Made by a program: the position numbers and the translations under genes
Assembly (NCBI GenBank): GCA_020073465.1
Contig: JAIQFC010000002.1
Coordinates: 248,001 to 312,000, forward strand
Length of the DNA: 64,000 nt
Direction of reading: 5' to 3'
DNA from: Terriglobia bacterium
Lineage (GTDB): Bacteria; Acidobacteriota; Terriglobia; Terriglobales; Acidobacteriaceae
The notes under the pieces: model-generated
Database searches by the model: none
What the model saw: only the letters and a program-made list of their open reading frames with translations
Told to the model about the DNA's origin: nothing
Shown here: in pieces, positions 22,888 through 23,732 of the stretch
Position numbering within the stretch: the stretch's first letter is position 1
Layout: each line of letters begins with the position of its first letter

Positions 22888-22975
22888 GGGTGCCCCAGGG
22901 CTCGTGCCCACTCCCATGTCTCGCAAAAGAGGCGAGACCCTCGACTCCGCTCAGGGCAGGCTATGGGGCACCCCA
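22888..22975. repeat. REP palindrome, distal side of RAYT 1
   Basis: GGGTGCCCCAGGGCTCG, then TGTCTCGCAAAAGAGGCGAGACC and a closing GGGGCACCCC. It is related to the palindromes inside and upstream of RAYT 1. The 22815-23027 gap contains only this. Confidence 0.75.
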
Positions 22976-23027: not shown

Positions 23028-23627
23028 TCACGACGCCGCGGGCCGAACTTTCATCACCAAGAGTTCCGTATCGTTAGTTCGCACCGGACCTGCCTCTCCA
23101 CTGCAATACCAACGAAAGCTGCTCCAGCGCCACTGCTCGGGAGAGGCCACCAACCCGCGTTTGACCGGGTTGCGATGGATGTAGCGCAGCTTTTCGATTC
23201 GCTTGCGCTCCGTCCAGACGTTAAAGTCGTAGAACCGCGCCTGCCAGAATGGATTGGGAACAATTAGGGTGCCCCGAGGGGAAACTAGGGTGCCCCAGGT
23301 CTCGCCGATTTTGCGAGACCTGGGAATGGCGCAAACACCGTTCTCGTCAGCGTAACCCTTCAAGCTGCGGACGAAACCAAGCTTCAATGCCTGAATGGCA
23401 GTTGACAGCGTGGTCCGCTGTGGTTCAGACGCCAGCAAGTGAACGTGTTCAGGCATGACGACATATCCCAACACTGCGAGCCGATAACGGCGGCGCACTC
23501 GTTCCAAGATCTGCAAGAACAAATCACAGCGGGCCGTGCGGCTGAAAAGTGGCTGGCGCCGGTAGCAGCTGAACGTGAGGAAATGTAAATCCGTTCCGCC
23601 GTAGAAGCGGTGAAGATTGTGAGCCAT
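23028..23627 (-). CDS. REP-associated tyrosine transposase (RAYT 1, Y1_Tnp family)
   Basis: About 199 residues. The Y1/HUH core is visible: FLTFSCYRRQPLF, the metal-binding HUH segment MPEHVHLLASEP, and the C-terminal RFYDFNVWTERKRIEKLRYIHRNPVKRGLV. The nucleophile Tyr is probably that in RFYDFNV, as in RAYTs. These are single-copy, domesticated relatives of IS200 transposases that act on REP palindromes. The CDS itself contains a REP copy in frame (about 23269-23330), encoding RSRKIGETWGTLVSPRGTL. ATG 23627 begins the family N-terminus (MAHNLHRFYGGTD); upstream in-frame codons look non-coding. Confidence 0.9.
   Translation of the reverse strand: MAHNLHRFYGGTDLHFLTFSCYRRQPLFSRTARCDLFLQILERVRRRYRLAVLGYVVMPEHVHLLASEPQRTTLSTAIQALKLGFVRSLKGYADENGVCAIPRSRKIGETWGTLVSPRGTLIVPNPFWQARFYDFNVWTERKRIEKLRYIHRNPVKRGLVASPEQWRWSSFRWYCSGEAGPVRTNDTELLVMKVRPAAS
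23269..23330. repeat. REP palindrome inside the RAYT 1 coding region
   Basis: GGTGCCCCAGGTCTCG and CGAGACCTGGG form a hairpin almost identical to the one upstream at about 23692-23732. It lies in frame within the RAYT gene. Confidence 0.85.
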
Positions 23628-23691
23628 ACGCAGAGAGTAGGAAAATCGGGCGGAGATGTCTGTGACGAGTGAACAGCGGAATCGTACGGGC

Positions 23692-23732
23692 CTCCCAGGT
23701 CTCGTAAAACCGGCGAGACCTGGGGCACCCGC
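23692..23732. repeat. REP palindrome upstream of RAYT 1
   Basis: CCAGGTCTCG-TAAAACCGG-CGAGACCTGG followed by GGCACCC. It lies between the RAYT start and the receiver/ATP-grasp gene. Confidence 0.85.

Follow-up and report, generated by a model that had tools for sequence, protein, structure and literature searches.

The REP-associated tyrosine transposase (RAYT) gene of the window, the 64,000-nucleotide stretch of soil-Acidobacterium DNA analysed here, carries a REP palindrome in frame, of the same type as the REPs that flank the gene. Comparison with relatives suggests an old insertion of a REP into a floppy loop of the protein, where it has been kept as DNA. In our view, a REP of the flanking family was probably inserted into the linker in an ancestor, kept as a hairpin, renewed from other REPs and is one case of a lineage-wide habit.

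The RAYT gene and its internal REP

The features of the locus are collected in Table 1. The gene is read on the minus strand from an ATG at 23627 to a stop codon at 23028-23030, and its product scores 104.9 bits against NF047646, the NCBI model for REP-associated tyrosine transposases (cut-off 80), in addition to matching PF01797. Residues H61, H63, K82, W128 and Y149 are invariant in an alignment of 33 rows. Among them, H61 and H63 supply the HUH motif and Y149, which we take to be the catalytic residue, supplies the tyrosine in YIHxNP, the two features by which RAYT/TnpAREP proteins are recognized. The gene is also flanked by REPs, as in other members of this group (23693-23730 and 22888-22974). 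With the conserved core residues all present, the catalytic core of this REP-bearing RAYT appears, on alignment grounds, to be intact.

Table 1. Positions within the window of the RAYT gene, its linker and the associated REP elements.
Feature	Position	Strand	Details
RAYT (REP-associated tyrosine transposase) gene	23028..23627	minus	199 aa; NF047646, PF01797, alignment
Linker, residues 92-126, between helix alphaC and strand beta4; holds the REP	23250..23354	minus	AlphaFold2 model and 4ER8 alignment
Internal REP, 37 nt	23288..23324	minus	arms 23294-23305 / 23313-23324; read in the gene as PRSRKIGETWGT
Duplicated REP foot, lengthens the linker further	23262..23296	minus	14-nt copies 23262-23275 and 23283-23296, 93% alike
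Upstream REP, inverted relative to the internal REP	23693..23730	plus	65 bp 5' of the start codon
Downstream compound element	22888..22974	plus	related inner REP palindrome 22918-22938, further short repeat, outer arms GGGTGCCCC/GGGGCACCCC

The stem of the internal REP comprises 12 bp with 100% complementarity. Its core corresponds to 12 codons, and the element supplies the residues PRSRKIGETWGT of the 199-aa protein, with the GGTGC foot on the strand opposite the coding strand. Over 38 nt, the segment 23288-23325 and the upstream REP show 95% complementarity. As RNA (36 nt), the internal REP folds with a predicted energy of -25.7 kcal/mol (z -6.3). The pattern AGGTCTCG-N3..20-CGAGACCT had two sites in the 5.9-Mb assembly, both at the RAYT gene (control 0), and the wider class GGTGCCCCA-N18..30-TGGG had 59 sites with many stem sequences (reversed-pattern control 1). 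Repeated short hairpin families, as expected of REPs, are therefore present in the genome (59 sites, 50 of them well paired), and the foot reads GGGTGC here instead of carrying the GT[AG]G tetranucleotide of canonical REPs. These data confirm the in-frame palindrome reported in the preliminary description, whose interval of 23028-23732 took in the gene and the upstream REP, with edges off by a few bases. Its assignment of the internal segment to the RAYT's own flanking REP type is likewise supported by the near-identical flanking copy.

An AlphaFold2 model based on a 33-row alignment (mean pLDDT 80.3) places helix alphaC at residues 74-91, strand beta4 at 128-137 and the Y149-bearing helix at 140-156. 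The linker that holds the REP is modelled as a floppy, low-confidence loop outside the catalytic core, with pLDDT values of 49-58 in ten-residue blocks over the insert (residues 91-120) and of mostly 85-97 in the core blocks. When aligned with the E. coli TnpAREP structure 4ER8, residues W94-Q95 of the latter correspond to W128-Q129 of the window RAYT. The insert adjoins a recognition region, because REP contacts were mapped around beta4, according to the accessible part of PMC8266576.

Distribution of REPs in RAYT linkers

RAYT proteins were matched by protein similarity in 168 of 200 family genomes, and the named relatives are Acidobacteriota MAGs, including Candidatus Sulfotelmatobacter and Acidobacteriaceae. 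For a survey of linkers, the N- and C-terminal halves of RAYTs were paired, giving 148 distinct pairs and leaving out 9 N-only and 17 C-only halves. A palindrome score of at least 10 was reached by 14 of the 148 linkers and by none of the equal-size windows taken from the two gene halves (0/148 and 0/148), while a score of at least 9 was reached by 18 of 148 linkers, one of which (L086) is not a REP, versus 0 and 1 half-gene windows. Some of these linkers were found only via REP patterns; excluding those six, 13 of 142 are positive, in a set that is itself drawn towards the window's relatives. Targeted patterns for the REP foot detected one orientation in 8 of 398 genomes (9 places, among which L176 shows no palindrome in the stretch seen and L172 is broken) and the other orientation in 3 of 398 (5 places), with no hits for the reversed-pattern controls. 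The REPs in RAYT linkers occur in both orientations and comprise about six stem types, namely GTCTCGC (the window's), CTTCTCG, TTCTCGCGC, CTCAAGCC, CTCATCGC and CCTGTCGC. In the linker of L181 (G193:C47), REP units are repeated in tandem, in frame and in sense orientation, and a second REP-bearing match is situated 405 bp away. In the RAYT of L050, a REP is located near the C-terminal end of the open frame, not in the linker.

For 137 of the 148 RAYT pairs, aligned without the linker, a quick tree was built with SH-aLRT support and no bootstrap; the pairs omitted were nine short halves, one near-duplicate and the long branch L016, and the degenerate REP of L069 was scored as absent. The window RAYT falls within a clade of nine with an SH-aLRT value of 100 in this quick, unbootstrapped tree. 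In seven of the nine, a REP occupies the same position in the same frame, its 12-bp stem being perfect in five and carrying one mismatched pair in two (L171 and L092); L069 has the degenerate copy, and L094 has none, so that the REP is not essential to the RAYT. A REP is also carried by L129, whose N-terminal half is broken and which is not in the tree. Outside the clade, REPs are scattered: 18 of the 137 rows are positive, at least 13 state changes are needed, and 119 RAYTs are scored without a linker REP (counting the degenerate copy of L069 as absent). The genus codes of the carriers include g1, g24 and g77.

The preliminary description had proposed that a REP was inserted into the gene and tolerated. 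Its absence from the 119 tree RAYTs and the intact core residues agree with this. In the homologue alignment suggested there as a check, most RAYTs lack the extra codons, yet close homologues of several genera have them. By parsimony the insertion would therefore be older than the window genome, and an insertion private to this genome is rejected, since seven of the nine clade RAYTs have the REP at the same place. What was named in advance as contrary evidence, namely these codons in homologues with no REP in their vicinity, was not observed: the clade members that were read have REPs nearby.

Conservation of the REP at the nucleotide level

In the seven clade members the REP is read as P-[RMT]-S-R-[KN]-x-[GS]-E-T-W-G-[TI], and the codons on either side of it (7-16 residues before and 6-13 after) are unalignable by eye. 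Among codons for the same residue, synonymous differences amount to 10% in the REP (18/179) compared to 55% (670/1218) and 53% (486/915) in the two gene halves, as counted over 21 non-independent pairs from seven related sequences. The lowest value among 116 twelve-codon windows elsewhere in the gene is 38.5%. The amino-acid difference in the REP is not unusual (22%, versus 31% and 20% in the halves). Given low synonymous change together with usual amino-acid change, the constraint acts on the DNA and not on the peptide; within the clade, the REP is thus conserved as DNA, not as protein, and selection, conversion by other REPs and template switching are candidate causes.

Three forms of one stem pair occur, in which one side falls in a codon for Arg, Met or Thr and the other in the Thr codons ACC, ACA and ACG. 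Covariation is confined to one of the 12 pairs and is equalled in score by 25 of 500 shuffles; with so few informative pairs, it was rejected as proof. The unpaired foot is conserved in the clade as well (GGC in 7/7 and ACC in 6/7). Of 19 loci, the REP finder failed to detect the internal REP in 10 and gave no flank in two more, so that the identity with flanking REPs was computed for seven. In three of these, the internal and flanking REPs are identical over the whole hairpin (L090, 31/31; L130, 37/37; L168, 29/29), and the arms are identical in five of the seven compared by script, differing in L089 (22/24 bases) and L177 (18/24). The internal REPs of L089, L092, L093 and L171 differ from their flanks at stem pair 4 or 5 (as read by eye in the last three), and the internal and upstream copies of the window differ by one stem base. 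REP renewal is therefore not continuous, and continuous homogenization with the flanking REPs was rejected as the sole cause of the conservation.

REPs in other genes of the same genome

An in-frame REP is not special to the RAYT, since REPs lie in frame in unrelated genes of the window genome, and the idea of its uniqueness to the RAYT was rejected. From the 59 REP-like sites, 28 ORFs of at least about 265 aa were listed, a limit that misses shorter genes, and 20 were taken to Pfam, which gave a domain for 10 and none for the other 10. Four proteins with an in-frame REP scored above their NCBIfam cut-offs. In acetolactate synthase (L025), the REP lies within residues 331-393, a segment unaligned to 6lpi that has 63 residues in place of 39. 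In the glyQ product (L266), residues 251-288 face two residues of 1j5w. The REP residues of the murC product (L242) add no length relative to 29zm, which leaves the DNA palindrome and the frame as the grounds for this case, and the REP in recN (L264) is located just after the best-matching stretch. Further in-frame REPs were found in genes encoding an ABC ATPase, a pyruvate dehydrogenase E1-like protein, an NDH2-like protein and a beta-lactamase-fold protein. The REPs of L228 and L256 are situated ahead of the domain, possibly even upstream of the true start. That of L240 falls beyond the matched segments shown, and a search of NCBIfam at 1e-20 gave nothing.

The corresponding glyQ and murC loops of genus relatives (L272-L317) hold other REPs, with an exact foot in 2 of 22 and 2 of 12, respectively, and REP-like remnants were recognized by eye in several more; 23 glyQ and 13 murC loops were read, each set including the window genome, with a regular expression and, for degenerate copies, by eye. 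Of the 50 well-paired REPs in the genome, which are related to one another and are not 50 independent cases, 44 are open in all six frames, compared to 18% of composition shuffles.

Origin and upkeep of the internal REP

The parsimonious course would be that the ancestor of the clade received a REP of the flanking family in the alphaC-beta4 linker, with its foot against the reading direction. Such an insert could survive in the gene because it is stop-free in all six frames and because the linker is predicted to be floppy and outside the catalytic core. Since the insertion, the nucleic-acid hairpin and the GGTGC foot would have been kept as the surrounding codons drifted beyond alignment. Most likely, the internal REP still acts as one of the RAYT's REPs and is occasionally renewed by copying or conversion from other REPs, to which repair of the palindrome would add, and possibly selection too. 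The window case is probably one of a lineage-wide habit in which REPs become part of proteins.

A purely mutational upkeep, in which an element of no function is kept near-perfect through template switching inside the palindrome together with conversion from other REPs, deserves tentative consideration. Template switching creates and maintains hairpins, as reported in the accessible part of PMC8794818, and the identity of internal and flanking copies in three loci, along with the single mismatched pairs of L171 and L092, would suit such a process. The conserved unpaired foot counts against correction within the palindrome, which cannot explain it, whereas conversion can. It is rather unlikely that the internal REP is regulatory or self-targeting, as the preliminary description had suggested, with an mRNA hairpin or binding of the RAYT to its own gene limiting expression. 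The stable coding-strand hairpin, the membership in the RAYT's own REP family and the conservation at the DNA level would all fit, as would the presence of an inverted upstream REP, at a start-to-start distance of about 360-510 nt, in the eight loci for which both an antisense internal and a sense upstream REP were read (the window, L173, L171, L089, L093, L168, L130 and L170). This proposal is weakened, however, because acetolactate synthase, murC, glyQ and other genes, including unrelated housekeeping genes, hold in-frame REPs. The two orientations of linker REPs and the 119 of 137 RAYTs scored without one also speak against it, and translating ribosomes would open a hairpin inside the coding region.

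We give little chance to the internal REP being a break or joining point that, together with the upstream or downstream REP, lets the gene be halved. L070, L071, L004 and L024 are N-terminal halves that terminate at a REP and have no C-terminal half, and in L070 and L071 the internal REP is followed by unrelated DNA and the upstream REP is present. However, just four of the nine N-only pieces end at a REP, and L070 and L071 are accounted for just as well by a simple deletion between direct REPs; REP-bounded movement of half-genes was rejected as a claim, as it is not separable from deletion. Equally doubtful is the related idea that the internal REP works in cis, bracketing the HUH half together with the inverted upstream REP, so that the RAYT cuts its own gene; if true, the transposase would be self-limiting, and the half-RAYTs of L070 and L071 would be its products. 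Finally, an ordinary protein sequence that is palindromic by accident has practically no claim to belief. The frame is kept and the core residues are intact, as such a sequence would allow, but a near-identical element lies outside the gene, about six REP types occupy the same linker in other RAYTs, and the nearly frozen synonymous sites in the REP rule it out. The old, occasionally renewed insertion of a flanking-type REP remains the reading that we prefer.

Comparison with known systems

In outline, in-frame REPs in RAYT genes (since 2018) and intragenic REPs generally are already known. In the accessible part of Quentin et al. 2018 (PMC6006769), in-frame REPs within tnpAREP genes, between the HUH and Y motifs, are described as a unique feature of subclass 2.4, whose members have the motifs NH[IFV]H, WQ and YIxNNP and whose insertion domain follows beta3 and precedes alphaC; some members of subclass 2.8 are said to carry the insertion as well. 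Set against that description, the EHVH and YIHRNP of the window RAYT do not fit, the WQ does, and the insert (residues 92-126) lies between alphaC and beta4 instead. The E. coli TnpAREP/REP system (4ER8) belongs to the same family, with a shorter alphaC-beta4 stretch than in the window RAYT and, per the accessible text of PMC8266576, a GTAG foot on the REP in place of GGTGC.

Di Nocera et al. 2013 (PMC3733652) reported, in the portion available, REPs within many unrelated ORFs, including recB of two Xanthomonas species with different REPs at about the same site. The REPs described here likewise lie inside unrelated genes; the tags differ, being GTAG or CGTC there and GGTGC here, and no RAYT gene is named as an intragenic target in that portion. 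The same source places an acidobacterial TIRYT group in Koribacter, Terriglobus, Acidobacterium and Granulicella, with long TIRs unrelated to GTAG REPs. By that description, the group resembles our case in consisting of tyrosine transposases of Acidobacteria flanked by inverted repeats; an internal copy such as that of the window RAYT is not mentioned in the available account. Rickettsia palindromic elements (RPEs), also covered in the part of PMC3733652 at hand, are in-frame components of ORFs whose proteins are likely functional; they end in CGTC, and a dedicated transposase is apparently lacking. A palindrome in frame in several unrelated genes is common to both systems, whereas the CGTC end tag is absent from 23288-23324 on either strand and a RAYT is present alongside here.

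In the open-access literature, as far as its accessible text extends, we found no earlier report of a REP site between alphaC and beta4 or of a test of nucleotide-level conservation. The new elements are the nucleotide conservation within the clade, the different insert site and the repeated gain of linker REPs. With them, in-frame insertion of REPs is extended to a RAYT in which two of the motifs of subclass 2.4 are missing and the insert occupies another position in the fold. They also give a measurable indication that the nucleotide sequence of a REP can be maintained across deep divergence even where it codes for protein. As it combines RAYTs with stop-free REPs in several proteins, the window genome is a tractable setting for how palindromic repeats enter proteins, the same question that arises in Rickettsia, for which the available source gives no known dedicated transposase.

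Additional repeats and an upstream motif

A second short repeat, of the CCTGAGCGNAGTCGAAGG type, occurs 44 times in exact form in the genome (control 0). A related form is located within the downstream REP element at about 22938-22961, and the repeat was also seen by eye in the acetolactate synthase insert (L025), with L072 listed too. Upstream of the RAYT gene, GTCACAGAC is situated about 32 nt before the start (23658-23666, minus strand). This motif, which might be a promoter or an operator, is exact in 21 of 136 RAYT upstream regions and was never found in more than one region in any of 200 shuffles, and TCACAGAC is present in 31 of the 136.
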